Assembly (NCBI RefSeq): GCF_024300625.1
Contig: NZ_CP101322.1
Coordinates: forward strand, 1,315,992-1,379,991
Origin: Halovivax gelatinilyticus
GTDB lineage: Archaea; Halobacteriota; Halobacteria; Halobacteriales; Natrialbaceae
DNA length: 64,000 nucleotides
Direction: 5' to 3'
This document shows positions 14,620-29,117 of the stretch, piece after piece. A program made the position numbers and the translations under genes. The notes below the pieces were generated by a model. It searched no databases, was not told the origin of the DNA, and saw nothing but the letters and a program-made list of their open reading frames with translations. Position 1 is the stretch's first letter; the number at the start of each line of letters is the position of its first letter.

Positions 14620-14760
14620 AACGGAAGCCGCTCTCCACACCGTCGCGGGGGCTGCGCAGAAATGCCCCGGGTGGTTAGGACACCCGAGACGCGGCTTCCA
14701 AGCACGCGGCTTGGTCACCATGATTGCGTACACACCATCGAGACAAAAAGGTCTCGCACG
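14620..14760 (+). ncRNA. Structured leader RNA, copy A (paralogue of 28648-28800)
   Basis: An outer stem pairs 14623-14629 (GGAAGCC) with 14693-14699 (GGCTTCC). An inner hairpin pairs 14668-14673 (CGGGTG) with 14681-14686 (CACCCG). A downstream hairpin CGAGAC/GTCTCG spans about 14739-14756. The sequence aligns with copy B at 28.6 kb in blocks: GGAAGC, TCTCCAC, GAAATGYCCCGGGTGG, ACACCCGAGAC, GGCTTCCA, CGTAC, CTCGCACG. Loops differ while stems are kept, which supports an RNA fold. It leads into a micro-ORF and a zinc-ribbon gene. I do not recognise it as a known class; a regulatory 5' leader is my inference. Confidence 0.65.
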
Positions 14761-14848
14761 CCTGCGGTATCGACAGCTACAGCTGCGATCGACTTACGCT
14801 TTGGATTCTAGCGTTCGACTTGACCCGTTTCGGGATGGGGTGTGCTGA
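14720..14848 (+). CDS. Micro-ORF A (42 residues) coupled to the zinc-ribbon gene
   Basis: ATG at 14720 to TGA at 14846-14848, which overlaps the ATG of the next gene (TGATG). The product is basic, beginning MIAYTPSRQKGLAR. The matching frame in copy B begins MNPYRLPRHKPLAR, giving the shared pattern M..Y...R.K.LAR. Both micro-ORFs start at the same place in the leader and end exactly at the next start codon. It may be a translated regulatory peptide or the consequence of RNA conservation; the start of the frame overlaps the third hairpin. Confidence 0.5.
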   Translation: MIAYTPSRQKGLARLRYRQLQLRSTYALDSSVRLDPFRDGVC

Positions 14849-15096
14849 TGGCGAACGTCAAGTCGAACGAGAAATTGGATGTAGAAACCTGTTACCGTTG
14901 TGGCGATTCGCTTGACCGTGCGCACTGGGTTCGCCTCTCAACGGTGAACTGTGGTGAACTGGCCGCGGCGTATCGCGACAGTGACCGACAGTTCTGTCCC
15001 GACTGCATCGCGGCCATCGGGATGATGGAAATCGATATTTCCGTTCACAAAGACCTGGAGGGTAGGCGACGGGACCGGTTGTTACCGATTCGTTGA
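14848..15096 (+). CDS. Small CxxC zinc-ribbon protein A
   Basis: 82 residues with two CxxC pairs: CYRCGD near residue 15 and CPDC near 51, spaced like a zinc beta-ribbon, followed by a basic tail. No catalytic motif. The start ATG at 14848 overlaps the stop of the upstream micro-ORF. Such small zinc-finger proteins are frequent in haloarchaea and mostly of unknown function. It ends 16 bases before the last repeat of CRISPR array 1. It has the same length and context as the protein at 28869-29117, but the two sequences are not clearly homologous outside the Cys pattern. Confidence 0.75.
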   Translation: MANVKSNEKLDVETCYRCGDSLDRAHWVRLSTVNCGELAAAYRDSDRQFCPDCIAAIGMMEIDISVHKDLEGRRRDRLLPIR

Positions 15097-15111: not shown

Positions 15112-16674
15112 GTTTCAATTCCGTTGTGGATTTTCTCCCTGCTGCGACCGATCAGCAACATCCTCGCCTCGTGAAACGCCATTGTTTCAATTCCGTTGTG
15201 GATTTTCTCCCTGCTGCGACCGTCGGAGGTGCCACGTTGCCACCAGCGATAGAACCGTTTCAATTCCGTTGTGGATTTTCTCCCTGCTGCGACCCGTTCG
15301 CGTACGAGTCGAGCACCAACGTCTCGACGTTTCAATTCCGTTGTGGATTTTCTCCCTGCTGCGACATGGTAGCGGTTCCAGGTCGCGGCGGCCGAAGCCC
15401 GGTTTCAATTCCGTTGTGGATTTTCTCCCTGCTGCGACACTCCTTCCTCGAGCTCTTGTCCTTCGAGACCGGAGTTTCAATTCCGTTGTGGATTTTCTCC
15501 CTGCTGCGACACGACCCTCACGGCAACGAATCTCACACGGAGGACTAGTTTCAATTCCGTTGTGGATTTTCTCCCTGCTGCGACTCGACGATAACCGCAA
15601 CCAGTTCACCGTTGATATCTTGTTTCAATTCCGTTGTGGATTTTCTCCCTGCTGCGACCGACGAGAAGGCGGTCGAACCGCATAGCATAGGCAGTTTCAA
15701 TTCCGTTGTGGATTTTCTCCCTGCTGCGACATGCTGGGTATGAAGTTCTCACCCTCCTCTAAAAGTTTCAATTCCGTTGTGGATTTTCTCCCTGCTGCGA
15801 CTCATCAGGCCGAGAATGAACAGCGCCACCAGCAGGAGTTTCAATTCCGTTGTGGATTTTCTCCCTGCTGCGACCGAATCGTCGAGACGGACTACCACGC
15901 GGACGACGAAGTTTCAATTCCGTTGTGGATTTTCTCCCTGCTGCGACGTTCCGGGTGGCCTTCCGGGTATACCTGATAGAGTTTCAATTCCGTTGTGGAT
16001 TTTCTCCCTGCTGCGACTCGAGCACGAAGCCATCCCGGTTATCTCGGGCAACGTTTCAATTCCGTTGTGGATTTTCTCCCTGCTGCGACGTGCCGTCAGA
16101 CGCACGGATCGACTGGCGCCAGATCGTGTTTCAATTCCGTTGTGGATTTTCTCCCTGCTGCGACATTCCGGATCGTGGCGCAACTCCTGTGCTACAACGT
16201 GTTTCAATTCCGTTGTGGATTTTCTCCCTGCTGCGACCCGCGCGCGAGGTGGGCCTGTCCGACCCTTACAGTAGTTTCAATTCCGTTGTGGATTTTCTCC
16301 CTGCTGCGACAACGCGAGAAATTTACAGACTTCCTCGTGTGGAACGTTTCAATTCCGTTGTGGATTTTCTCCCTGCTGCGACAGCACTCGGGGCAGCCAC
16401 GCGTTTCACAGTGTGTCGGTTTCAATTCCGTTGTGGATTTTCTCCCTGCTGCGACCTCAGCGTCCTGTTCATCGTTTCAGGGTTAATCGGGTTTCAATTC
16501 CGTTGTGGATTTTCTCCCTGCTGCGACCCGACACATCGCAAGGATGGTTGACAGTGGGAGATATTGTTTCAATTCCGTTGTGGATTTTCTCCCTGCTGCG
16601 ACGGTTCGCTGCCGGTTGGGCGGTCCACTGCTACCGCGTTTCAATTCCGTTGTGGATTTTCTCCCTGCTGCGAC
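15112..16674 (-). CRISPR. CRISPR array 1, subtype I-D: 22 repeats, 21 spacers
   Basis: A 37-nt repeat recurs every 71-75 nt from 15112 to 16638 with 34-38 nt unique spacers. In the transcribed direction (minus strand) it starts GTCGCAGCAGGGAG and ends ATTGAAAC, the usual 3' handle. This and the conserved leader at its high-coordinate end set the orientation: newest spacers near 16.6 kb, oldest near 15.1 kb. I saw no degenerate repeat. Because the repeat contains no stop in several frames, long open frames run through the array; they are not genes. Confidence 0.98.
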
Positions 16675-16789
16675 TGGGGGTGAATATGGGGCTATAGGCC
16701 CCATAATTGTTTCTCCTGGCTCGAAAATCGACCTGTGCTTCGTGGACTGGGGCTGTACAGCGACTTCATAAGGGTCCACGAAGAGTAGT
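16675..16789 (-). promoter_or_regulatory. Leader of CRISPR array 1 with promoter and inverted repeat
   Basis: It is closely similar to the leader of array 2 over about 105 nt, sharing GTACAGCCCC, CCACGAAGC, GGTCGATTTTCGAGCCAGG, AGAAACAATTATG and ATATTCACCCCC next to the first repeat. An inverted repeat CTTCGTGGAC/GTCCACGAAG (16738-16747 and 16774-16783) flanks the TATA-like CTTATGAAG with a 26-nt spacer. A second small palindrome, GGGGC-CTATA-GCCCC, lies nearer the repeat. These are likely sites for transcription start, a regulator and spacer integration. Confidence 0.85.
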
Positions 16790-17440
16790 TCAAGGGAACT
16801 GCGATGCGAGGTACAGTCGGCCACTGAGCGTGATTTCGACGAGCTTGGATCGATCTTCGGTGTGGCACGATACTAATCCCTCGGATTCGAGTTGGTTGAC
16901 GTGCCGAGTGATCGTACTCTTCGCACTTTCCCGTCGCTCTTCGAGTGATGAAATCGACACCGGTTGCCCTTGGTCCGCTACGGTGATCAGCGTCTGTTTC
17001 GCACCACGGGAAACGTTCGTCGGGAGCGTGGGTACTTCCCACTCCCGAACCTGTCCATCGATATCGCTGTAACCCAAGATGCCAGCGATATTTTGTCCAT
17101 GCGCAATTGTGGCAACGATCAGTGGAACGAGTACGTCACGGGCACCCCCTCCAAAATTGACTATCACCGAGCCGTCCGCAGCCGTCAAAAGGTCGCTGCA
17201 CTGAATTACGGCCGACGAAAAGTCATCGTGCGGAATCCGTTCGACGTCAACCGAGATTTCCGGTTCGATTTCGTGCAATAGTTTCTCGACATCTGCAATC
17301 GCATCCGCCGCGCGATCGGTATCGGTCTCCTCGCCGGGACGAACCAGCACAACAAGGTCTCCCGCCTCGATATCTTGTTTTAGAATCGCCCGCGTGACGC
17401 TGGTCGTGTTGAACCCGATCGGTGAAACGAACGTCCGCAT
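16790..17440 (-). CDS. csa3: Csa3: CARF-domain CRISPR regulator
   Basis: 216 residues. The N-terminal CARF domain begins MRTFVSPIGFNTTSVTRAIL and has a conserved NFGGGARD turn (about 95-102). The C-terminal winged helix (about 150-215) contains SSLEERRESAKSTITRHVNQL. Known Csa3 proteins bind DNA at CRISPR leaders or cas promoters, and the CARF domain can bind cyclic oligonucleotides. The gene is divergent from cas6 across a 124-bp shared promoter region, and its stop lies at the edge of the array 1 leader. The ATG at 17440 is very close to a TATA-like element, so the transcript may be leaderless. Confidence 0.9.
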   Translation of the reverse strand: MRTFVSPIGFNTTSVTRAILKQDIEAGDLVVLVRPGEETDTDRAADAIADVEKLLHEIEPEISVDVERIPHDDFSSAVIQCSDLLTAADGSVIVNFGGGARDVLVPLIVATIAHGQNIAGILGYSDIDGQVREWEVPTLPTNVSRGAKQTLITVADQGQPVSISSLEERRESAKSTITRHVNQLESEGLVSCHTEDRSKLVEITLSGRLYLASQFP

Positions 17441-17564
17441 TTGCCTGAATTTCGCGTCTTGGACTCATAATATTGCAGGATATTGCAACGGACCCGTTCC
17501 TGTTGCAGTACAAATAGGTCGGTGGCTTTATGACCATTGCACATCATTTTCTGCCATCCGTCGC
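17441..17564. promoter_or_regulatory. Divergent csa3/cas6 promoter region
   Basis: It contains a direct repeat ATATTGCAGG-ATATTGCAAC at about 17470-17490 and a further TTGCAGTAC, candidate operator words. A TATA-like TATTATGAG serves csa3, and GCTTTATGAC at about 17525 serves the cas operon about 40 bases before the cas6 ATG. It lacks the GTCCACGAAG arms found in both CRISPR leaders. Confidence 0.5.
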
Positions 17565-18428
17565 ATGGCAACACAGAAACCAAAGGGATCCCAGGTTCGC
17601 CGGGTCGAAATCTGCGTTCGACCCACAGCTCGATTTCCTGTCCCGAAGTCAGACGGGTATCCGCTCTACAGTGCACTTCTACACATACTCGAGCGAGCGA
17701 ACGAATCCGTGAGCCAGCAGGTTCACGACTCCCAACTCGGAAGCCTCCACTGCAGCGGCCTTCAAGGCCGATTCGGTGGAAGCGATCGAGCCCACCACAA
17801 GAGCCTCCTCCCGAACGAGGAGTACACCATCCGGCTCGGAATCGTCGATCCCGACGACGAGGCAGTGTTCCAGGCACTCGTGAAACAACTCGTGCTGGAA
17901 GGCGAGGAAATCGCGTTGACCGACGGCACGTTGCGGGTCGAATCCTTCGAAAGCCGGAACGTGAGTCACGAAGAACTACTCACACGCGCGGGGGAAATGG
18001 ATGATCCATCAGTGACGATCGATTTCCAGACCGCGACGTGTATCAAGGAAGCTGGAGAGGTTACCACGGCGTTTCCACACCGATGGGCCGTACTGAAGTC
18101 GTTGCTCGGAAAGTGGAATCGGTCGTGTCCGGACGATCTGGAGTTGGAACTGGATCGTGAGGCGGTGTTGGCGAATGTGATCGAAAAGCCGAACGTAGAC
18201 ACACTCGATACACATAGCGTCTTGGTGAACAGAGTTCGAAACGAGGACGGAGAGACACGGAATCTGTTTCTTCAGGGATTTACCGGTGAGGTCACGTTCG
18301 AGTTCAAAGACGCGAGTGAGAGTCTGGAGAATGCCGTTGTTGCGGTGGCGCAACTTGGGGAGTACAGTGGCGTAGGGAGTGCAGTGGCTAGAGGGTGTGG
18401 ATCAGTTAGTGTGAAGGTGTTAAATTAA
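17565..18428 (+). CDS. cas6: Cas6 pre-crRNA endoribonuclease
   Basis: 287 residues from ATG at 17565. Cas6 cuts the long CRISPR transcript within each repeat, leaving the ATTGAAAC handle. Seen here: a tandem ferredoxin-like layout, an early RRVEICVRPTARFPVP strand, and the C-terminal glycine-rich loop GEYSGVGSAVARGCGSVSV typical of Cas6. It is the first gene of the cas operon and its stop overlaps the cas10d ATG by one base. Most I-D loci place cas6 after cas5, so this order is a variant. Confidence 0.9.
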   Translation: MATQKPKGSQVRRVEICVRPTARFPVPKSDGYPLYSALLHILERANESVSQQVHDSQLGSLHCSGLQGRFGGSDRAHHKSLLPNEEYTIRLGIVDPDDEAVFQALVKQLVLEGEEIALTDGTLRVESFESRNVSHEELLTRAGEMDDPSVTIDFQTATCIKEAGEVTTAFPHRWAVLKSLLGKWNRSCPDDLELELDREAVLANVIEKPNVDTLDTHSVLVNRVRNEDGETRNLFLQGFTGEVTFEFKDASESLENAVVAVAQLGEYSGVGSAVARGCGSVSVKVLN

Positions 18429-21400
18429 TGAGTGATGGCTCAGACGAAGAGCAAAGTGGGCTCAATGACTTCAGCAGCGCTGATAGAGGTGAACCAAATG
18501 ATCCGAAGATAAGAGAAAAGGCAAAGTCTGGCGTCGCGTCCCTGTCAGGGGAAATATTCGAGAATCCTGACGAGGCATTCGCTCCCGACGAGACAGAGTC
18601 TGACGAGCAGGAAGCGCTCAACGAGGTGTTCAAGGAGTACCTCTCCGAGATAGACGGGAAGCTCATTGAGGCTGGTTGGCTATATCTCCCGAATAAGAGC
18701 ACCGAATACGGGAAAGTCGACCAATCAATGCTCAACCACACGCGGAACCTTGTATTCTTCCTCCACCGGCTGGCTACTCAAGCAAAACCAGCCGGTCTCA
18801 GACCGATTTCTCCGAAAGAGTTGCGCCACCTCATCGCTCTTGCGGTCATTCATGACTTCCACAAACTCCGTGATGAAGACGGGAATCGGTCAGAGCGATT
18901 CAACATTACAATTGATGAACTAGAACCTTTCGTTCAAGAACTCGGATTAAAGGAGTTCAGTGCAGACCCTTCGGAAGCAGATTCGGCCCTCGAGCTGCGA
19001 GATTTCCGTTCCTGTGCTGTTGATCACCACGCGACCGACAATGCTAAACCGACGAATGTGACGATTCGGTGGGAAGAATACCGACCGTTCATCCGATTAG
19101 CAGACGGGATGGCATCCTCGACGACACCAGAAAAAGCGGCGGATTCGAGGGCACAAAAGCAGTTTCGGGAATGTTTCCCAGGTGCAGACGTTGAACTGGC
19201 TCATCACCGAATTGATCACGTGAGTGGAATATTCACAAGCTTGATCAATACTGCTGTCAATGAGCACCTTGAAGAAGAATATGATCATACGCTTCTGACT
19301 ATCTATCAAGATGGGTGTGTATATCTTGCGCCACAAAATCGATTTCCTAAGCTCACTGACCAGTTTGTAAATGCGATTTACAACCAATTGAGCAAGAACA
19401 TCAGTGACTTTCATCCCACGTACAGTAATACAGATCTTCTTGCTGAAGACATCGGCACGGTAAATCTCGGGCATTATAGCCTAAACCCCTCTCAGTTCTT
19501 TTACGCTGGTGCACAACGAGTGACACAAGCAATTATAAAAAAAGGTGTTAATGATGGCTCTATTGATGAAGAGCCAACTGAATCGGCTCTTAAATCGATG
19601 GAATTGTTGGAGGATGATCTTGATAGTGAATTATACAAAACAAGCCAGTTGTATGGAATGGCACGATTTGTAAGTACCATCCGAAGAGGAATTCTTCCAG
19701 CATTCCTTAATGACTCAGGGATGTTATCTGATGAGGGACTTCGTGCGACCGGTAACGTGCTCAATCTTCCTGAGGACGTTGCAGAAGAACTAATCTCCCT
19801 ACCTTCGGATGTTAAAGATCGGCTTGTGAGCGGTAATAAGTGGGAATTTTCATACGCCTTTGGACAAGCTCTACTGGAAAAGCACGGTCAAGGAAAGAAA
19901 ATCAGTGAGGGTGAATCGAAGATCATTGAAAATATAGAGGATGGGCTCGATTCGATCGCAGACGAGACGTACTGGGTGGAGACTCTTCGAGAGAGCTATT
20001 CTGGTGGATACCGCTCAGAAGTGGTTTCCTTCATCCAAAAACATCTCCGAATTGGTGAAGAATCACAAGGGGAAGCAGGCGCACTTACAGACACTTACAA
20101 CCAGTATGCAGAAAGCTCTCGTCGTGGACGCATCTGCTCACTCTGTTCTGGTGGCCTAAGTGATACACACAACCTTGGTGATATGCAGCCATCTGACGAC
20201 ATCACCATGATTCGTGGAGGGTTCACAAACCGCGATCCGATTGGGAGTGGTAAACGAGATAACCGAGTGGTGTGTGTCCCTTGCCAAATCGAACTTTCGC
20301 TACGTGGTGCGGCTAGTAACAACCGCTACAATGGCCGACTATTCATTCACCTCTCACCAGATTACTTCTACACACCTTTTACATGGCGACTATTTAACCG
20401 GATCACCAACCAGTTTACCGGCGATAATCGTGTTCGAATTGGTCGACTTGCTGAGGCGGTTTCGGATATTGAAGAGCCGGAAAAATTCAATCAAGTGCTG
20501 ACTGAACTCACACGAGAGGATGGAGGTCGGCCAATGATTGACTCACTTTCCGGCGGTTTTGATCAAGAGGCGCAGTATGGAGCACAAGTTGTCGGGTATT
20601 TCAAAGAGTTGTATGATGAGGGCACAGGAAATGATACTGAGTTCCAGTTCTTCGGGACTTTCCTCGCCCTTGCAATCAGTTCCTACACGGGAATGCGAGT
20701 GTATCTCAGTGCATCTCCGATCCCGGAGATGCGATCGCGTGACTTCCCAGAGTTCGTAAAGATCGGAGGTAGCTTCACTCAAGTAACATCGTTCTATGGA
20801 GATAGCGTTCCACTCTCAGAATTGCAAGTACGACTTCAGTCAGCAGCTGCCCTGATCAAGCTAGGTCACGCACTTCAGGGAAAAACCCGTAAGGACTCGC
20901 TGTTCGCGAAGTACCTTCGGGTGACTCGAAACGAGCTGCTCCCGGGGTCGTATCTGCTCAAACGAGCAGCCCAATCCTCAGATGAGGGGCCGTACATTCC
21001 CGCCCTGATGAGGTACGCAGTCACGCTGGATGAGCAAGCCGGAATCAAGCAGTACGGTTCAAATATGAGTGATACACCACACAGCCGCATCACACAACTC
21101 GCCGATCTCGCCTACGATGCAATCCGTCCCGCAAGCGGACATGGGCGAAAGCCACATCGCGTCGAACGAGTCTTTCGCGAGAGTGTGAAGGCGGTCTCGA
21201 AAACAGGAGAACAGCTGAGCCGAGACGACTACGTGATGCTCGTCTCGGGTAGACTTCAAAAACGACTAGTTCCGGAGAAAGTGAAAGCTGTTTACCCAGT
21301 CAGTGCAGAAATGTCGAACGCTGGCACACCATTACAGGAACGCATTGAGGAGTATTCCGAATTCTTCGTCGACGAGATCCTCTATGGTATCGCCAACGGC

Positions 21401-21538
21401 CGTCCCTCGCAGCTGAAACGGCTCAAGAACAACCTTGCCGATGGATTCTTTGGTGCAACGCTCAGGGCAGAATCGAAGTTTTACGAAGAGCGTGACCAAC
21501 AGAACGAGACCACCGACACGAAAACGGAGGCGGAGTAA
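18428..21538 (+). CDS. cas10d: Cas10d (Csc3), large subunit of the subtype I-D complex with HD nuclease
   Basis: 1036 residues. In subtype I-D the HD nuclease is carried by Cas10d rather than Cas3. The N-terminal HD residues are visible: H104 (LNHTRN), H142-D143 (VIHDFHK), H200-H201 (AVDHHAT) and D226 (RLADGM). A zinc site follows near 570 (CSLCSGG) and 614 (CVPCQ). The remaining palm-like region has no GGDD motif, so no cyclic oligonucleotide synthesis is expected. Codon use is clearly more A/T-rich in the middle of the gene than in neighbouring chromosomal genes, consistent with horizontal transfer. It overlaps cas6 and is followed by csc2 after 3 bases. Confidence 0.92.
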   Translation: MSDGSDEEQSGLNDFSSADRGEPNDPKIREKAKSGVASLSGEIFENPDEAFAPDETESDEQEALNEVFKEYLSEIDGKLIEAGWLYLPNKSTEYGKVDQSMLNHTRNLVFFLHRLATQAKPAGLRPISPKELRHLIALAVIHDFHKLRDEDGNRSERFNITIDELEPFVQELGLKEFSADPSEADSALELRDFRSCAVDHHATDNAKPTNVTIRWEEYRPFIRLADGMASSTTPEKAADSRAQKQFRECFPGADVELAHHRIDHVSGIFTSLINTAVNEHLEEEYDHTLLTIYQDGCVYLAPQNRFPKLTDQFVNAIYNQLSKNISDFHPTYSNTDLLAEDIGTVNLGHYSLNPSQFFYAGAQRVTQAIIKKGVNDGSIDEEPTESALKSMELLEDDLDSELYKTSQLYGMARFVSTIRRGILPAFLNDSGMLSDEGLRATGNVLNLPEDVAEELISLPSDVKDRLVSGNKWEFSYAFGQALLEKHGQGKKISEGESKIIENIEDGLDSIADETYWVETLRESYSGGYRSEVVSFIQKHLRIGEESQGEAGALTDTYNQYAESSRRGRICSLCSGGLSDTHNLGDMQPSDDITMIRGGFTNRDPIGSGKRDNRVVCVPCQIELSLRGAASNNRYNGRLFIHLSPDYFYTPFTWRLFNRITNQFTGDNRVRIGRLAEAVSDIEEPEKFNQVLTELTREDGGRPMIDSLSGGFDQEAQYGAQVVGYFKELYDEGTGNDTEFQFFGTFLALAISSYTGMRVYLSASPIPEMRSRDFPEFVKIGGSFTQVTSFYGDSVPLSELQVRLQSAAALIKLGHALQGKTRKDSLFAKYLRVTRNELLPGSYLLKRAAQSSDEGPYIPALMRYAVTLDEQAGIKQYGSNMSDTPHSRITQLADLAYDAIRPASGHGRKPHRVERVFRESVKAVSKTGEQLSRDDYVMLVSGRLQKRLVPEKVKAVYPVSAEMSNAGTPLQERIEEYSEFFVDEILYGIANGRPSQLKRLKNNLADGFFGATLRAESKFYEERDQQNETTDTKTEAE

Positions 21539-21541
21539 CCA

Positions 21542-22531
21542 ATGCTACCAGAATCAGTCACTACGGCGCTAGAGAGCGGGACCGTTCCGATCGACGAAAT
21601 GACGAACACACCAGGAACCAACTACACGACGATCCTGGTTCTCAGAGAACTCGAAAGTCACGCAATCTTTACGACGAATGGCGAGGACGCTGACATCGCC
21701 TCGCTCTCGGTCGTTGGAGATGGCGCAAGTATCGAGTACTCGCCGGGAATCATGTTCATGCGTAAACAAACCGGTAGCGACCGCCGCATGGGCAAGGCCA
21801 TCCAGCGCGAGCTGCTGAATTACGAGGAAGACGACTCGATGGAGGTAAACAACATGAACCCCCGTTCAGTCGAGTCGGCCCTCTACGGGAGTGCAGCAAG
21901 CGGCGACGATGACGTCGATATTGGCGTTACCTCGCGAGTAATGTACGATACGGCGTTTAGCGTACGGGACGCAAGCGCATGCATCGACGAGAAGTTCCAG
22001 AACGCACCAGGTGAGGATTACGCGAAAGGCTCCCGTTCGACCATCCGTGAGCCGGACTTCTTCGAACCGGGTTCGCTCTTCCCGTGTGCAATTACGCTCC
22101 GAGACGCGACGCCTGCTGAAGTGGCGTTCGTCGTTGCAATCACGAAACGAAACAAGCGCTACGGTGCAGCAACGACTCGGCTTGGCCGCGTCAAAAACCA
22201 TATCCTCGGCGTGTACACCGGCGACGAGGAAGGCCCTTCGAACCGCGAACTTACGGCAAACGTCATCACGTCGTTCGCTGCAGAGAGCGATTATACGTTA
22301 AGTGACGTCGTTCAGTCCCCAGCGCTCGATATTGCGGAGGCGAGTGAATACGTCCAAGATGCGTACGACGCTGCTTGCACGGAAGGGGTTGCACAGGATC
22401 CTGTCGATCAGGCAGTTGTGAACGAACTTGTCGAAATGGCTGCAGATGACGAACTTGGGGCTATTATGGAAGCCCAGCAACCGCATTCCGCGGAATTCAT
22501 CGATAACGCGATAAAAACTGACGGGGACTGA
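21542..22531 (+). CDS. csc2: Csc2 (Cas7 of subtype I-D), crRNA-backbone subunit
   Basis: 329 residues. Csc2 polymerises along the crRNA spacer. Family signatures: LRELESHAIFTTNGE near residue 36-50, a GSDRRMGKAIQREL segment near 78-91, and a mid-protein RNA-binding region. It follows cas10d with no promoter space, so it is read as part of the operon. Length fits the family. Confidence 0.92.
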   Translation: MLPESVTTALESGTVPIDEMTNTPGTNYTTILVLRELESHAIFTTNGEDADIASLSVVGDGASIEYSPGIMFMRKQTGSDRRMGKAIQRELLNYEEDDSMEVNNMNPRSVESALYGSAASGDDDVDIGVTSRVMYDTAFSVRDASACIDEKFQNAPGEDYAKGSRSTIREPDFFEPGSLFPCAITLRDATPAEVAFVVAITKRNKRYGAATTRLGRVKNHILGVYTGDEEGPSNRELTANVITSFAAESDYTLSDVVQSPALDIAEASEYVQDAYDAACTEGVAQDPVDQAVVNELVEMAADDELGAIMEAQQPHSAEFIDNAIKTDGD

Positions 22532-22541
22532 CGGGGTTGCC

Positions 22542-23288
22542 ATGCAGGTCATCGAAGCAACGCTCACGACGCACGGAAAAGTTGGATTCGCCTCACGAGA
22601 GGTGGGTCGAATGACCGATACAGATCCGTGTATCCTGAACACAGCGTTGCACTACGCCCTCGGCCTCGCGAGTGGACGGTACGTGGACGTGATTCACCAG
22701 CCAACCTACATCGAAGACACCGCCGATGTAGTCGACGATGTCTATGTCACCCCCGCGGCCCCCGCTCGTATCGAACGGCAAGGGACGGCTCGGACGGAAT
22801 ATCTGACCACGAATCGAAACGCTCGAAGCGACACCTACGCGACGCCCAACTACCCGGCCACTGACGATCCAACAGGTCGAGCTGACAAGAATCTCCCGAC
22901 GTTCGAGCGGGAACGGGCGTTAGCACCCGAGAATGCGTTCCGTTTCTACGTCTTTCCGTACGGGCAAGAAGCGAGCGAAGTATCTACACGACTTCCATCG
23001 TATATCCGACTTGGGAAGAAGCGAGGGAAGGGACATGTCAGTTATCGAATTGTCGACGCCGAGCGCCGATCGGGAACGTTCAATCTCGGACATCCACTGA
23101 GCGTATACGATCACGACGCTATGCCGACAGGTGGCGTCGTGATGAAGCAGATGCAGCCGACACCGGTCTGGTTCGAAGGGGAGTTCGACACTGACCACTA
23201 CGCTATTGAGTCCCCATTTCCGAACGAGTCGAGGATCCGTTATCCGGCCGGGGCGAAGTTTCTCGCAACAAAACGGGACGATGTCTAA
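22542..23288 (+). CDS. csc1: Csc1 (Cas5 of subtype I-D), 5'-handle-binding subunit
   Basis: 248 residues. Csc1 caps the crRNA 5' handle in the I-D complex. Seen: an N-terminal VIEATLTTHGKVGFASREVG strand-turn, YALGLA, and a C-terminal RLGKKRGKGHVSYR segment typical of the family. Its last codons overlap the start of cas3 by 8 bases (ATGTCTAA), indicating coupled translation. Confidence 0.9.
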   Translation: MQVIEATLTTHGKVGFASREVGRMTDTDPCILNTALHYALGLASGRYVDVIHQPTYIEDTADVVDDVYVTPAAPARIERQGTARTEYLTTNRNARSDTYATPNYPATDDPTGRADKNLPTFERERALAPENAFRFYVFPYGQEASEVSTRLPSYIRLGKKRGKGHVSYRIVDAERRSGTFNLGHPLSVYDHDAMPTGGVVMKQMQPTPVWFEGEFDTDHYAIESPFPNESRIRYPAGAKFLATKRDDV

Positions 23289-25434
23289 CCACGATTCAGT
23301 CTCGTTCCAGCTTGCTGGGCTTGGACTTCGGACGTATCCGGGTGAGTATCCGGTGGAAGGTATCACACCGTATCGACACCAGTGGGCCCTCCACGATGCG
23401 CTTACATCCCGTGAACCCGGGATATTCGTGAACGATGCCCCCACCGGCGGGGGAAAAACGCTCTCCTGGTTGGCACCGGTAATTTCAGCAGGGCTCTCGA
23501 CAGTCGCTATCTATCCAACAAACGCACTAATCGAAGACCAACAGAGAAATATTTCTGAGTTATTGAGTGATGTCGATGGTGGGGACGACTGTCAGCTACT
23601 GGCCGTCACTAGTGAAACGCTCCAGAACGAATATGCAGAGCAGTTTCCCGATGCCAGTTCTAACGGCGAACGGCTTTCATCCCTACTGAGACAGGCATTT
23701 TCAGGCCGGAAGCCCGTCGTTCTCCTCACAAACCCAGACATATTCGTATTGCTTCGTCGAGAAATGTACCATGAGCGAATTGGGCAGATCAAACAATTTG
23801 AAGTGGCCGTCGTTGACGAATTTCACCGAGCAACACGAAAAGAGCGGAATACGATACTGTTCCTCCTCGACGAGATGTACGATACCGACGAGTCTATATG
23901 TCGATTGAACCACCTCGTTTTCCTGAGTGCAACATCAGACGTGCGCCTCGAACGCCAGTTCGAAGAGGCGATGGTTGCGCCATATTATCGAGTCGACGAC
24001 GTTGGGTGGCGAACGGATCCGCATCCCGCAATCACAGAAGAAACGCCATCAACGATATCATTTGGACCGGGTGAATTACCCGCAGCATACCGCGCGGTCT
24101 TACCACCTGTAGATTTGGTAATCGAGCCAGCACCGACGTTCGGGACCGCGGCAGAAGTGCTTGACAACGTCGAAGTGGTGCTGGAGCGATTGGCCACCGG
24201 TCGGACGGTTATCATGCTCGATGGGGTTCACGAAATCGACCGCGTGTATGATCTCTTACACGGTTCGGATCTCACTCGCGTTGAACGGATTGACGGATTT
24301 CACCGCGAGGACGTGCGGGAGAAAATCGACACGTTCGACACCTTAGTGAGTAACTCTGCCGTTGAGGTCGGTGTCGACTTCGATGCGGACCAGATCGTAT
24401 TCTCGGGCCACGATGCTGCAAGCTTCTTCCAGCGACTTGGACGGCTTCGCACCCGTCCTGACCGGTCTGATGCGTTTGCATACGCCCCTCCCTATCTCTT
24501 TCACGATCTTGAACCCCTTTCAGACTCTCTCGACGGACAATGGGTTGATCGCTCAGAATTCGAAAAACGGGTCAAATCGGCCTATGTCGATTCGTCCACA
24601 CCCGCTTCGTTTGACTGGCGGTACTCCGCTGTAGAGGCCTACGATCACGTCGAAGAGCGAGTAGAAGGTGCACCAGCGGATGACCAACTGGCCATTCGAA
24701 AGGCTGGCTGGTATCGAATTGAAAGTCACTTTTTCAACGAGGACAAGGGCGGCCTCTCCGAAAACGACCTCCAACGTATCTACGAGGTGGCTGATTCAGC
24801 ACTTCTCAATACGCTGAAAACGTATCGGGGGGAAAGCGTCCAGACACTCGTTTACGATCAGCGTTCACAGAGCGTTCAAACGTACAATCTCCCGTACCTT
24901 CTCCGCCATTCTGACGTTTCATTCTATACCCGAGATACCTTTTTAACTCATCTACCAGATGGGCTTGTTGATAAAGTGTCAAGATTGGAACCGTACAGTA
25001 GCGGTTACTGCATTTACAGAGGTGAATACGACGGGCAATCAGCCGGTGGAGATGCTGATCAGACCGCTGGAAGGCTTTTCACGTATAAAGCAACGGGGGA
25101 ACTCTATAGCCTTCTGAGCGATTGTTCTCGAGATATCCGTACCCCAAAGGTTTGCACTGGTCTAGAGGTCGAAGTGACGCCGAGCGTCAGGGGTGTTGAT
25201 GTACTAAAGGATGAACTCTCTACCGACCAGATCCTTTGTTATCCGGTCGAAGGGCATGTCTCACAAATTCAGAACCAGTACTCACTCGGTTCATTTGGGT
25301 TCATTTATCCACTTCTCTATTCCGAAGGCGACGCAGCAGTGGCATTCGGCCACGACGCCCTGTATCTCCATTGTCGCGTTCAAGACAGAATACAAGCAGA
25401 ATCTAACACGTTCGACGAGGTGCTCGATTTTTGA
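23281..25434 (+). CDS. cas3: Cas3' helicase of subtype I-D (no HD domain)
   Basis: 717 residues from ATG at 23281, preferred over an in-frame codon 75 bases upstream that would lie inside csc1. Superfamily 2 motifs: motif I APTGGGKT near 50-58, motif II DEFH near 179-182 (DEFH in place of DEAD/DEAH), motif III SATSD, and motif VI FQRLGRLRTRPDR near 380-393. There is no HD nuclease domain, as expected in I-D where Cas10d carries it. It unwinds target DNA after recognition by the crRNA complex. Confidence 0.9.
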   Translation: MSNHDSVSFQLAGLGLRTYPGEYPVEGITPYRHQWALHDALTSREPGIFVNDAPTGGGKTLSWLAPVISAGLSTVAIYPTNALIEDQQRNISELLSDVDGGDDCQLLAVTSETLQNEYAEQFPDASSNGERLSSLLRQAFSGRKPVVLLTNPDIFVLLRREMYHERIGQIKQFEVAVVDEFHRATRKERNTILFLLDEMYDTDESICRLNHLVFLSATSDVRLERQFEEAMVAPYYRVDDVGWRTDPHPAITEETPSTISFGPGELPAAYRAVLPPVDLVIEPAPTFGTAAEVLDNVEVVLERLATGRTVIMLDGVHEIDRVYDLLHGSDLTRVERIDGFHREDVREKIDTFDTLVSNSAVEVGVDFDADQIVFSGHDAASFFQRLGRLRTRPDRSDAFAYAPPYLFHDLEPLSDSLDGQWVDRSEFEKRVKSAYVDSSTPASFDWRYSAVEAYDHVEERVEGAPADDQLAIRKAGWYRIESHFFNEDKGGLSENDLQRIYEVADSALLNTLKTYRGESVQTLVYDQRSQSVQTYNLPYLLRHSDVSFYTRDTFLTHLPDGLVDKVSRLEPYSSGYCIYRGEYDGQSAGGDADQTAGRLFTYKATGELYSLLSDCSRDIRTPKVCTGLEVEVTPSVRGVDVLKDELSTDQILCYPVEGHVSQIQNQYSLGSFGFIYPLLYSEGDAAVAFGHDALYLHCRVQDRIQAESNTFDEVLDF

Positions 25435-26048
25435 GTTCGCCAACAACCGTCGGACAACGAGACGAACTCGTTCACGTTAGCGCGTTGAATGAATACGTGT
25501 ACTGTCCACGTCGGTTCTACTATCAGCGATATCACGACGAAATCGGTACTCCGTACGAACTCATTGACGGTCGATCGAAACACCAGAACCAATCAAACAG
25601 AGGGGGATGGGTGACTGAACGTTACTTCAGATCCGACGAGCTCAAACTACACGGGAAAATTGACCTGATTGAATCTGACAGTGAGGTTCTTACCCCAGTC
25701 GAGCGGAAGCGTTCCGAAAGTGGGCAATACTATCCGAGCGACGAGGTGCAACTCACAGGATACTGCATGTTACTCGAGGATGCACTCGACGAACCGGTGA
25801 ATGTTGGCTACATTTACCTTTATTCGACCGATACCCGACACGCGATTAGGATCAAAGAACGGCATAGAGAAACAGTTCGTAAGATCGTGTCGAGAATTAC
25901 AGAGATGACTGTTAATTCCCTTCCCCCATTCACCGACAATCCAAAAAAGTGCGAAGCCTGCTCAGCACGCCAGTACTGCATGCCATACGAAACAGCGCTA
26001 CTCGAACCCGAGAAAGCCCAAGGGACTGGCTGGGAGGACCGCGTATGA
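25431..26048 (+). CDS. cas4: Cas4 Fe-S RecB-like exonuclease (spacer acquisition)
   Basis: 205 residues from TTG at 25431, overlapping the cas3 stop. Cas4 trims and orients prespacers with Cas1-Cas2. The four Fe-S cysteines are C25 (YCPRRFYY) and C174, C177 and C183 (CEACSARQYC). RecB nuclease residues: D78 (GKID), E91 and K93 (VERKR), Q107 and Y111 (QLTGY). Its TGA overlaps the cas1 ATG (ATGA). Confidence 0.93.
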   Translation: MSSPTTVGQRDELVHVSALNEYVYCPRRFYYQRYHDEIGTPYELIDGRSKHQNQSNRGGWVTERYFRSDELKLHGKIDLIESDSEVLTPVERKRSESGQYYPSDEVQLTGYCMLLEDALDEPVNVGYIYLYSTDTRHAIRIKERHRETVRKIVSRITEMTVNSLPPFTDNPKKCEACSARQYCMPYETALLEPEKAQGTGWEDRV

Positions 26049-27055
26049 AGTCTGCGGAGGGAATGTTCGATGAATCGATCGTCTACGTGACGAGGCAGGG
26101 TGCTCAGATCCGGACCGGCGAGGGACGAATCATAGTCTTCGACGTCACGCTAGACGAAGACGACGATAGTGATCCGGAGTTGGCCTCCTACCCAATCGAG
26201 AAGGTGGATACGATAAACGTCTTCGGCGGAGTCAACTTCACGACGCCTTTCATCAAGACGGCGAACGAGTCGGGGATCGTCCTCAACTACTTCAGCACGA
26301 ACGGGAAGTATCGCGGAAGCTATCGTCCAACGAAGAACACGATCGCCGAAATTCGACGGGCACAGTACGGATTGTCGAGACAGGAGGAACTCGAAATCGC
26401 GAAGTCGATGATTTCCGGAAAGATCCGGAATGCTCGCACTCTCCTCTCTCGAAAGGGTGTTCACGGGACGGATGTTCTCAGAGATCTCGGAGTGCGCGCG
26501 ACGAAAGCTATGACAAAAGACGCTCTCCGCGGGACGGAAGGCGAAGCTGCAGAGCGCTACTTCTCCCGACTGGACGAGACCCTTATTGACGGCTGGACGT
26601 TCGAAAAGCGGACGACACGCCCGCCGGAAGACCACATCAATTCGCTACTGTCACTTACCTACGTCTTCGTCAAGAACGAGGTGCTTGGCGCGCTCTATCA
26701 GTACAATCTTGATCCGTTCCTCGGCGTGTTACACGCCGATCGGCATGGCCGGCCCTCGCTCGCGCTCGACCTGCAAGAGGAGTTCCGGCCGATATTCTGT
26801 GATGCGTTCGTTACGCGGCTGATCAACCGCGGTGTGATAACACACGATGACTTCAACAAGGACAATCGATTGGCCGATGACGCGTTCAAGACGTACCTTG
26901 GAAAATTCGACGAGTACATGCAAGAGGAGTTCACACACCCATATTTCGAGTACAACGTCTCGAGGCGGAAGGCAATTCGTCAGCAGGCGATCTTACTTCG
27001 AAAAGCAATCACTGGTGAACTCGATGGATACCATCCTTTGACATTCGATCGATAA
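26045..27055 (+). CDS. cas1: Cas1 integrase
   Basis: 336 residues from ATG at 26045, overlapping the cas4 stop. Cas1 inserts new spacers at the leader-repeat junction. Metal-binding catalytic residues visible: E165 (LRGTEGEAAERYF), H230 (GVLHADRHG) and E245 (DLQEEFRP). Length and motifs match the family. Confidence 0.97.
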   Translation: MKSAEGMFDESIVYVTRQGAQIRTGEGRIIVFDVTLDEDDDSDPELASYPIEKVDTINVFGGVNFTTPFIKTANESGIVLNYFSTNGKYRGSYRPTKNTIAEIRRAQYGLSRQEELEIAKSMISGKIRNARTLLSRKGVHGTDVLRDLGVRATKAMTKDALRGTEGEAAERYFSRLDETLIDGWTFEKRTTRPPEDHINSLLSLTYVFVKNEVLGALYQYNLDPFLGVLHADRHGRPSLALDLQEEFRPIFCDAFVTRLINRGVITHDDFNKDNRLADDAFKTYLGKFDEYMQEEFTHPYFEYNVSRRKAIRQQAILLRKAITGELDGYHPLTFDR

Positions 27056-27057
27056 CA

Positions 27058-27330
27058 ATGCGTCTCGTCATTACGTACGACATCAGCGACGACAAGAATC
27101 GGCGTCGAATCTATCGAACACTCCAGCGATACGGGGCCTGGCGACAGTACAGCGTATTCGAGGTCAACGTCTCGAAAACGGAACGCGTCGAACTGGAAGA
27201 TGAGTTGAAAAAACACGTCGAAGAATCCGATGACGATCGAATCAGAATCTACCGTCTTTGTCAGTCGTGCCAGGGTGACGTGACCGATATCGGTGCAGGA
27301 CCACCAGACGAACAGTCCAACATTGTGTAG
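27058..27330 (+). CDS. cas2: Cas2, spacer-acquisition partner of Cas1
   Basis: 90 residues with a ferredoxin-like fold start MRLVITYDISDDKNRRRIY; D8 is the conserved acidic residue. It follows cas1 after 2 bases and ends the operon, directly before the array 2 leader. Confidence 0.96.
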   Translation: MRLVITYDISDDKNRRRIYRTLQRYGAWRQYSVFEVNVSKTERVELEDELKKHVEESDDDRIRIYRLCQSCQGDVTDIGAGPPDEQSNIV

Positions 27331-27444
27331 CTGGTCTTCGTAGACCATTATAAAGGAGGTGTACAGCCCCGGTCCACGAAGCGCGGGTCGATTTTCGAGC
27401 CAGGAGAAACAATTATGAGGCCTATAGCCCGATATTCACCCCCG
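27331..27444 (+). promoter_or_regulatory. Leader of CRISPR array 2 with promoter and inverted repeat
   Basis: TATA-like ATTATAAAGG at about 27347-27356 lies between the arms CTTCGTAGAC (27336-27345) and GTCCACGAAG (27372-27381), again with a 26-nt spacer; one arm has a single change from perfect symmetry. Downstream, the conserved leader words GGTCGATTTTCGAGCCAGG and AGAAACAATTATG run to ATATTCACCCCC at the first repeat. The GGGGC palindrome of leader 1 is partly broken here. Confidence 0.85.
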
Positions 27445-28424
27445 GTCGCAGAAGGGAGAAAACCCAGAACGGGATTGAAACACCATCCTCATCTTGTGGG
27501 TGTATATGGTCGAACCGTCGCAGAAGGGAGAAAACCCAGAACGGGATTGAAACTTATGGATCACCCCCTCAATATCACCTTCCGAGTGTCGCAGAAGGGA
27601 GAAAACCCAGAACGGGATTGAAACAATCATCGGTCCTGTCAAACCTACCCTCACCATGATGTCGCAGAAGGGAGAAAACCCAGAACGGGATTGAAACCGG
27701 GAGATTCTGGCCGTTCGAACCGCATTCGGGGCGTCGCAGAAGGGAGAAAACCCAGAACGGGATTGAAACTTGGTGACGCCACGGACAATATCAGTGCGGT
27801 CGTCGTGTCGCAGAAGGGAGAAAACCCAGAACGGGATTGAAACATTGCCTTCGGCTGATCGCCACGATCGCGCAAGGCGGTCGCAGAAGGGAGAAAACCC
27901 AGAACGGGATTGAAACACCAGTGCCCGGTCTGTGGATGGGCCGTTATCCGCTCGTCGCAGAAGGGAGAAAACCCAGAACGGGATTGAAACTATTAACGCA
28001 CTCATTGGCGATACGGTAGTGCAGGTCGCAGAAGGGAGAAAACCCAGAACGGGATTGAAACCCCTCGGTGATCCACAGGTCGTATTCGTCGGATCCGTCG
28101 CAGAAGGGAGAAAACCCAGAACGGGATTGAAACCGTTAACTCCAGAGGGAAGAGCGCCACCTCGTCGAGCGTCGCAGAAGGGAGAAAACCCAGAACGGGA
28201 TTGAAACAAGTAGAGTTTTCATTAAACCATGTAACTGGGTCAGTCGCAGAAGGGAGAAAACCCAGAACGGGATTGAAACTCTAAGAGCATGGCTGTTGCA
28301 TCGATGGGTTCGTGTCGCAGAAGGGAGAAAACCCAGAACGGGATTGAAACACGTCAGGGAACGATCGAAAGGACTCGTCTACCGGACGTCGCAGAAGGGA
28401 GAAAACCCAGAACGGGACAAAACG
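27445..28424 (+). CRISPR. CRISPR array 2, subtype I-D: 14 repeats, 13 spacers
   Basis: The 37-nt repeat starts GTCGCAGAAGGGAG and ends ATTGAAAC. Repeat starts run from 27445 to 28388 with 34-37 nt spacers. The last copy (28388) matches only the first 30 bases and then diverges (GGGACAAAAC instead of GGGATTGAAAC), which marks the leader-distal end and confirms the direction. The repeat differs from array 1 at positions 8, 19, 23 and 29. Confidence 0.98.
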
Positions 28425-28614
28425 CGATGAATACCTCTCGGCGTTGCGGCAAATATTGAATGGGGCTCAGCCGTCAGGCAATACCCTCGTTTCCACGAAA
28501 AACGACCAAAATTGTCGTTCTATACTGGTTTCTTCGACGAGATTCGCCTGCAATTTGCCTTCATAAAGACGGACAGCCCGTCCCACGATAAAAATTTTAA
28601 TTTCCAACTAGTTG
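28425..28614. other. Array 2 downstream flank, possible gene fragment
   Basis: A plus-strand frame through the degenerate last repeat reads GTKRDEYLSALRQILNGAQP before losing character and ending at a TAA. It could be the remnant of a gene cut by array formation, or chance. The rest is AT-rich promoter sequence for the next element. Confidence 0.3.
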
Positions 28615-28629
28615 GTTAGATATAAGTAA
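28610..28629 (+). promoter_or_regulatory. TATA box of leader-RNA copy B
   Basis: GATATAAGTAA at about 28619-28629, preceded by an AT-rich stretch, predicts a start near 28648-28651, at the first base of the conserved stem. This is the same geometry as copy A. Confidence 0.6.
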
Positions 28630-28647
28630 CACTAATACGTACAGTCG

Positions 28648-28800
28648 GTCGGAAGCACCAGTCTCCACTCGCCAGGGGACAGGCACGAGAAATGTCCCGG
28701 GTGGGCAAACACCCGAGACTGTGGCTTCCAGTCGCGGCCGACCGAAGCCATGAATCCGTACCGCCTACCGAGACATAAACCTCTCGCACGACGCTCGAAT
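28648..28800 (+). ncRNA. Structured leader RNA, copy B (paralogue of 14620-14760)
   Basis: An outer stem pairs 28651-28656 (GGAAGC) with 28724-28729 (GCTTCC). An inner hairpin pairs CGGGTG (28698-28703) with CACCCG (28710-28715). A downstream hairpin CGAGA/TCTCG spans about 28769-28786. Blocks shared with copy A are in the same order and spacing, although intervening sequence has diverged. It leads directly into a 40-codon micro-ORF and a zinc-ribbon gene. Confidence 0.65.
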
Positions 28801-28872
28801 CGCCCGATATCACCAGCTACGCGGCCGGCGTTACAGCCGGTACCGTCACCGACGATGGGGGTCGTGGGGTGA
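28750..28872 (+). CDS. Micro-ORF B (40 residues) coupled to the zinc-ribbon gene
   Basis: ATG at 28750 to TGA at 28870-28872, overlapping the GTG start of the next gene (GTGA). Basic and Pro-rich, starting MNPYRLPRHKPLAR. It shares M..Y...R.K.LAR and genomic position with micro-ORF A; the remaining 25 residues are not conserved. It may be a regulatory peptide whose translation sets expression of the next gene. Confidence 0.5.
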   Translation: MNPYRLPRHKPLARRSNRPISPATRPALQPVPSPTMGVVG

Positions 28873-29117
28873 CCGATCGATCGCCGAGTCGCGACGCAGA
28901 TCGGGACGCGGCGTCGGGGACCGACGAGACGTCGGCCCGCGACGCGTGCGAGCGAGGCGAGCCGGATGCGGAGGCTTCGGAGCTGTCGCGATGTCCGCGG
29001 TGTGGCACGCCAGTCGCGATGCTCACGATCTGCGGGCCGATGGACGCGCGGGTCGCCCCGTGTGGCTGTCGGCTCGCCGTCGCGGACGTGAACGAGCTGA
29101 CGGATTCGTCCTCGTAG
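28869..29117 (+). CDS. Small CPxCG zinc-ribbon protein B
   Basis: 82 residues from GTG at 28869. An acidic, Asp/Ala/Glu-rich N-terminal half is followed by a zinc-ribbon CPRCG (near 42) and CGC (near 66), the pattern of haloarchaeal small CPxCG-related zinc-finger proteins. Its start overlaps the micro-ORF stop. It has the same gene order as at 14.7-15.1 kb. Confidence 0.75.
   Translation: MTDRSPSRDADRDAASGTDETSARDACERGEPDAEASELSRCPRCGTPVAMLTICGPMDARVAPCGCRLAVADVNELTDSSS

Follow-up and report, generated by a model that had tools for sequence, protein, structure and literature searches.

A riboswitch-like leader RNA that appears widespread before small zinc-finger genes of Halobacteria

Translational riboswitches with start-site sequestration, e.g., preQ1, SAM-II, and the synthetic theophylline switches of Haloferax volcanii, consist of a 5′ leader with a conserved junction in which a closing stem and the start region exchange strands, and the leader family analyzed here has these features in common with them. 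In contrast to preQ1 and SAM-II, the region predicted to be sequestered here is that of the AUG rather than the Shine-Dalgarno sequence; moreover, the leader family differs from translational riboswitches in that it is limited to Halobacteria, occurs in tens of copies per genome, and precedes mostly small zinc-finger genes. As of 2021, the fluoride switch was the sole natural archaeal riboswitch determined experimentally, and synthetic switches with the AUG hidden in the OFF state function in H. volcanii (PMC8241225). Structured leaders have been described as atypical for haloarchaea (PMC4983044). The leader family would share with the natural archaeal translational switch that it is a native archaeal translational switch, but it differs in structure, genes, and lineage. 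Ribosomal-protein leaders of Halobacteria, e.g., the S15 r-leader (PMC7247131), are likewise structured cis leaders in the same class; however, no unit that we read precedes a ribosomal protein gene and no unit matches Rfam, and a ribosomal-protein leader was ruled out on the first of these grounds. Type III toxin-antitoxin systems, in which tandem RNA repeats lie upstream of an endoribonuclease gene, were rejected given the single leader and the small zinc-finger products. Overall, the leader family looks riboswitch-like, which denotes a likeness to translational riboswitches in structure and folds alone and not a classification as a riboswitch.

The DNA analyzed was a window of 64,000 nt (C1:1315992-1379991) from a single-contig genome of 3.70 Mb; positions below are those of the window and all features lie on the forward strand. 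A preliminary description had proposed an ordered set of blocks for one leader (copy B), which we recovered as GATATAAGTAA (28619-28629), GGAAGC (28651), TCTCCAC (28662), CCCGGGTGG (28696), ACACCCGAGAC (28709), GGCTTCCA (28723), and CTCGCACG (28783). The first block, read in the sequence as a TATA box of its own as had been claimed, has its center about 27 nt upstream of the leader, which spans 28651-28749 with the AUG at 28750. The 5′ strand of stem P1 (GGAAGC...AGTCTC; 28651-28665), which lies at the predicted transcript start, forms an inverted repeat with the P1 3′ strand GAGACTGTGGCTTCC (28715-28729) and this pairing is supported by covariation. Two hairpins lie between these strands: P2 (GGGACA...AGAAA...TGTCCC; 28676-28698), supported by the fold and by compensatory changes, and P3 (GGGTG-GGCAAA-CACCC; 28699-28714), which is invariant in Natrialbaceae and co-varies in other families. 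The inverted repeat, a duplex test, and ON/OFF energies indicate that the P1 3′ strand is shared, i.e., that it pairs with either the P1 5′ strand or the start-codon region. In the latter case, the start-codon context GAAGCCATG (28744-28752) is the partner of TGTGGCTTC (28720-28728) in a helix termed anti-P1 that defines the OFF fold, as supported by the register-free duplex test and the ON/OFF energies.

Downstream of the leader, the micro-ORF ORF1 (40 aa, MNPYRLPRHKPLARRS...; 28750-28872) is kept in frame in nearly all units. It contains the hairpin P5 (CGAGA ... TCTCG; 28769-28786), recognized by coupled changes at codons 8 and 12, and its stop codon is the end point (28872) that had previously been given for the structured RNA. 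ORF2 (28869-29117) has a GTG start at 28869 that overlaps the ORF1 stop and encodes a zinc-ribbon protein (CPRCGTPV..APCGC), as supported by orthologues, pN/pS, and predicted structure. The reported succession of structured leader, micro-ORF, and zinc-ribbon gene therefore stands, in copy B as in homologous units. Two features had been missed: the start codon is involved in one of two mutually exclusive folds, and the CTCGCACG block contributes to an RNA hairpin within the micro-ORF.

Copy A has an identical plan and matched copy B block by block when the two were aligned. Its leader (14623-14719) and AUG (14720) together occupy 14623-14722, with P1 formed by GGAAGCCGC and GCGGCTTCC at 14623-14631 and 14691-14699; ORF1 (42 aa, MIAYTPSRQKGLARLRYRQ...; 14720-14848) is followed by ORF2 (14842-15096), which encodes a zinc ribbon (CYRCGDSL..CPDCIAAIGMMEI) starting with GTG at 14842 or ATG at 14848. 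The folds of the two copies were more stable than those of shuffled sequences (z values of -2.8 and -3.1), though the decisive support for the structure, above fold stability, is covariation in homologues. Used as queries, the two copies retrieved many others dispersed over the genome, with matches reaching E 4e-12 for B alone and 3e-48 for A, which puts the resemblance of A and B far beyond chance, as had been argued. A genome-wide search with a covariance model (R1) yielded 25 copies, of which 24 had E <= 1e-10; the matches that ranked after these were antisense, at E >= 0.17. The repeated small gene unit proposed in the preliminary description is thus real, but its scale was set too low, given 25 units in this genome and hundreds in the class. 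Within the family as a whole, some copies are apparently decaying, with ATA (L016) or AAG (L125) as the start codon or a frame change within the zinc ribbon (L033).

Outside Natrialbaceae, R1 gave weak matches in other families of the order, in which the sequence differs and the architecture is the same. A second covariance model (R2) matched 197 of 391 sampled Halobacteria genomes from 68 of 86 genera (E <= 0.001), and a phylum-level sample gave no matches outside the order. Up to 33 copies per genome are present in Natrialbaceae, and most other genera have 1-3. Two genera outside Natrialbaceae have 10-15; the one with SWIM genes is probably Haladaptatus. The Natrialbaceae form is present on contigs of Halovivax, Natrinema, Natrialba, Halopiger, Halostagnicola, Natrarchaeobius, and Natronorubrum, and the leader also occurs on plasmids. 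Among viral contigs and phage records, neither the leader nor relatives of the products tried were matched. Searches of the 64-kb window against Rfam 15 at the curated threshold gave no match at or above the gathering threshold, and at a permissive threshold no relevant family overlapped the leaders. The literature searched, which mostly did not extend to subscription journals, held no description of the leader family. Judged from sequence, the family appears to be a control element that resembles a riboswitch, is widespread, and has gone unreported.

Promoter position and RNA structure were analyzed across homologous leaders. A TATA-like box was observed in the interval -38..-20 for 166 of 189 leaders, compared to 31 and 17 in the flanking windows, and peaked at -30/-31. 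This position places the RNA at the 5′ end of an mRNA and the start of P1 at the 5′ end of the transcript. The leader folds into a three-way junction of P1-P3 closed by P1. In a set of 97 leaders from Natrialbaceae, double changes affected 10 of 24 pairs, with 45 doubly changed cells compared to 8 in shuffles; for 31 diverse leaders, the covariation score was 0.423 compared to 0.160 when shuffled. The values for 99 diverse leaders were 93.1% paired compared to 71.4% shuffled, 478 doubly changed cells compared to 146, and compensatory change in 21 of 24 pairs. Their score of 0.573 compared to 0.181 for shuffled sequences and at most 0.118 with partners slid; all of these alignments were fitted to the structure, which biases them in its favor, but the slid controls nonetheless collapse. 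The A-rich end of the P2 loop (mostly GAAA), the GG/CC base of P2, and GUG/CAC of P3 are near-invariant, and P3 as a whole (GGGUG/CACCC), fixed in Natrialbaceae, shows compensated changes elsewhere. RNAalifold missed P2 on the raw MAFFT alignment because the variable loops are misaligned there. The leader hence contains a conserved structured domain that is supported by covariation, as is expected of the 5′ leader of a riboswitch.

Two segments are complementary to the P1 3′ strand, namely the P1 5′ strand and the stretch that runs up to and across the AUG (GAAGCC-AUG in copy B). Across leaders, P1 and the start context change together: GGUUUCC occurs with GAAACCAUG, CGCUUCC with GAAGCAUG, GGUCUUCC with GAAGACC(A)AUG, GGGUUCCC with GAACCCAUG, and GGGUCG with CGACCCAUG. 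In a register-free duplex test of 96 leaders, the P1 3′ strand bound its own context at -9.78 kcal/mol compared to -6.43 +/- 0.23 for permuted contexts (0/1000), permutations that remove the relatedness of the leaders only partly; the shuffled-base control gave -4.98 kcal/mol. Similar values were obtained for 77 leaders outside Natrialbaceae (own duplex -9.88 kcal/mol; permuted -6.53 kcal/mol). Full 7/7 anti-P1 helices were present in 46 of the 96 leaders, compared to 11 expected. At 213 positions, the context and the P1 5′ strand carry different bases; the context base nevertheless pairs with the 3′ strand at 156 of these, including 66 at which the 5′ base does not. The context therefore follows the 3′ strand and is not a copy of the 5′ strand. 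A fixed-column test for anti-P1 on the diverse alignment was not significant. A one-base shift in register makes this test blind to anti-P1, and the case for the helix thus rests on the register-free tests.

We compared predicted energies of an ON fold, in which the AUG region is held open, and an OFF fold, in which the P1 5′ strand is held open. For copy B these were nearly equal, at -43.9 (ON) and -44.3 kcal/mol (OFF), i.e., a gap of 0.4, for 37 °C and standard salt rather than molar KCl. Under the same conditions (37 °C, standard salt, not molar KCl), the values for copy A were -45.3 (ON) and -36.3 kcal/mol (OFF) and the difference across leaders had a median of -3.3 kcal/mol (quartiles -6.2 to -0.9). 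The OFF fold is weak in some copies, among them copy A and many copies from Halovivax whose anti-P1 spans just 6 bp. On these energies copy A looks locked ON, its OFF fold apparently lost, and with copy B nearly isoenergetic the paralogues may differ, some being constitutive and others switchable. At the computational level, the family thus has the mutually exclusive fold hiding an expression signal that characterizes riboswitches.

These folding models suggest that leader B is probably a translational on/off switch at the mRNA 5′ end, with the AUG exposed when P1 is formed. Transcription would start at or next to GGAAG and the first ~80 nt would fold into the P1-closed three-way junction, P1 forming first during transcription. 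The ORF1 AUG would then be free (ON), a state that stabilization or binding of P1 would favor. Upon loss of P1, its 3′ strand would capture the bases before and over the AUG as anti-P1 and block initiation (OFF), such that pairing controls translation. The P2 and P3 hairpins are the probable recognition domain, to be read by a ligand or protein. In Natrialbaceae, the ORF1 stop overlaps the zinc-ribbon start, and so gating of ORF1 would gate the zinc-ribbon gene via coupled translation.

The genes behind the leader vary between lineages. In nearly every Natrialbaceae unit, the TATA box, leader, ORF1, and ORF2 follow in the same order, and ORF2, which mostly starts in an ATGA overlap, codes for a zinc ribbon (CPxCG..PCGC or CYRC..CPDC). 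Some Halovivax units have an ORF1 of ~115 aa that itself bears a ribbon, in most cases with another ribbon ORF behind it. In other haloarchaeal families, the leader stands directly before SWIM genes or other, mostly small, zinc-finger genes. Products behind the same P2/P3 core include zinc ribbons, SWIM proteins, 45-aa CxxC..HxxxC proteins, and a 101-aa protein without CxxC. The uncharacterized 45-aa proteins follow about 13 copies in a genus of another family (f4/g87; L203, L212, L215, L218, L221, L223, L226). In the ORF2 product of Halostagnicola, the zinc ribbon is preceded by a HalOD1-like output domain (matched weakly in Pfam at E 0.02; L084, L086, L092, L104, L107, L109, L119). A subgroup including Halopiger djelfimassiliensis, Natrinema pallidum, and others retains the leader and ORF1 (MIAYPLPRHKRLARQS...) with no zinc-ribbon ORF immediately downstream (L046, L064, L087, L110, L124, L129, L132). 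The leader was rejected as an obligate part of SWIM genes, being present at one of 10 annotated plasmid SWIM genes. The downstream genes share no common pathway that would point to a ligand. ORF1 and zinc-ribbon products gave nothing above cut-offs in Pfam, PHROGs, and NCBIfam, and Pfam detects SWIM in some distant products. The ribbon of unit B ORF2 was predicted with a pLDDT of about 90; the best Foldseek matches of the zinc ribbon were ribosomal and polymerase zinc ribbons from archaea and eukaryotes, all at E >= 1 and none confident.

Both ORFs are under purifying selection. Unit B has orthologues in four other Halovivax genomes, among which pN/pS is 0.56 over the first 28 codons of ORF1 and 0.49 over the ribbon of ORF2. 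The orthologues are similar from the promoter to the ORF2 stop and their flanks are partly conserved in two congeners, which argues for vertical inheritance. In Natrialbaceae, P5 corresponds to ORF1 codons 7-12 and is conserved as RNA: AGA at codon 8 goes with CTC at codon 12, and GGA with CCC (61/0/3/34; Fisher 3e-23). Amino acids change along with the P5 base pairs, indicating that part of the conservation of ORF1 is at the RNA level; this coupling rules out purely peptide-level conservation of the ORF1 N-terminus in Natrialbaceae. P5 as a class-wide feature is unsupported outside this family (mean z -0.24).

CreTA are RNA toxin-antitoxin units of haloarchaeal CRISPR loci in which a crRNA-like antitoxin RNA, partly resembling CRISPR repeats, accompanies a toxin RNA within the cas locus. 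Like CreTA, units A and B are small RNA units near haloarchaeal CRISPR-Cas, bracketing a type I-D locus with two arrays (15116-28420) and genes for Cas6, Cas10d/Csc3, Csc2, Csc1, Cas3′, Cas4, and Cas1d. By repeat orientation, the array end at which each unit lies is the distal one; near B, the terminal repeat (28383-28420) is degenerate. A third unit (L012; C1 about 1,475,000) has a CRISPR array with a different repeat within about 1.1 kb, and unit B orthologues in two other Halovivax genomes (L314, L315) have arrays within 1.5 kb. No unit read from other genera is near a CRISPR array in the manner of the Halovivax units. In contrast to CreTA, the leader units contain protein genes, mostly lie at a distance from CRISPR loci, and showed no crRNA-like antitoxin. 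CreTA was rejected on the grounds that the leaders have no repeat-like sequence, repeats being confined to the neighboring arrays, and that most copies are far from arrays.

A broader reading, which we put forward tentatively, is that the leaders form a native, Halobacteria-confined class of riboswitches or riboregulators, present in most genera and at about 30 copies per genome in Natrialbaceae. The closing stem and the start codon would compete for one strand, and an entire regulon made up of small zinc-finger proteins would be switched at translation by one shared signal. Given that the same core precedes products of unrelated fold, a signal shared by all leaders is more probable than the binding of each leader by its own product. 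The main rival, a serious if doubtful one, is a protein-bound autoregulatory leader, in which a zinc-finger product or a shared RNA-binding protein on the P2/P3 junction would shift the balance of P1 and anti-P1. Ribosomal proteins bind their own mRNAs in such an autoregulatory manner, and zinc fingers, to which most of the products belong in several unrelated types, often bind RNA. The invariant sequence of P3 in Natrialbaceae is as expected for a protein site, and each genome has many paralogous pairs of leader and protein. However, the occurrence of one P2/P3 core before unrelated proteins favors a common trans factor or ligand, and Foldseek gave no confident ribosomal or other match.

It is unlikely that the leader is instead a ligand-free physical sensor, i.e., a bistable RNA thermometer or osmosensor. 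Such a sensor of temperature or salt would suit ON and OFF folds that lie within a few kcal/mol, in organisms that confront large salt changes, and the switching range of a synthetic Haloferax switch does shift with salt (PMC8241225). Yet the conserved GAAA/P3 core would be superfluous in a pure thermometer, and P3 and the base of P2 are almost invariant. We consider it very unlikely that the leader is a non-coding RNA in its own right, or a small mobile element, whose position before small genes is incidental. The AUG belongs to the conserved, co-varying structure; ORF1 is kept open, overlaps the next start codon, and has P5 inside it; and unit B, with selection acting on both of its ORFs, is kept in four congeners. 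A mobile element would account for the high copy number, scattered loci, and presence on plasmids, as well as for unit B orthologues being similar from promoter to ORF2 stop, but no phage or viral contig was matched.

A class-wide, many-copy leader with a putative, co-varying start-codon switch contradicts the picture of structured leaders as rare in haloarchaea and of riboswitches as rare in archaea. The leader family also offers a common entry point to a large group of uncharacterized small zinc-finger proteins.
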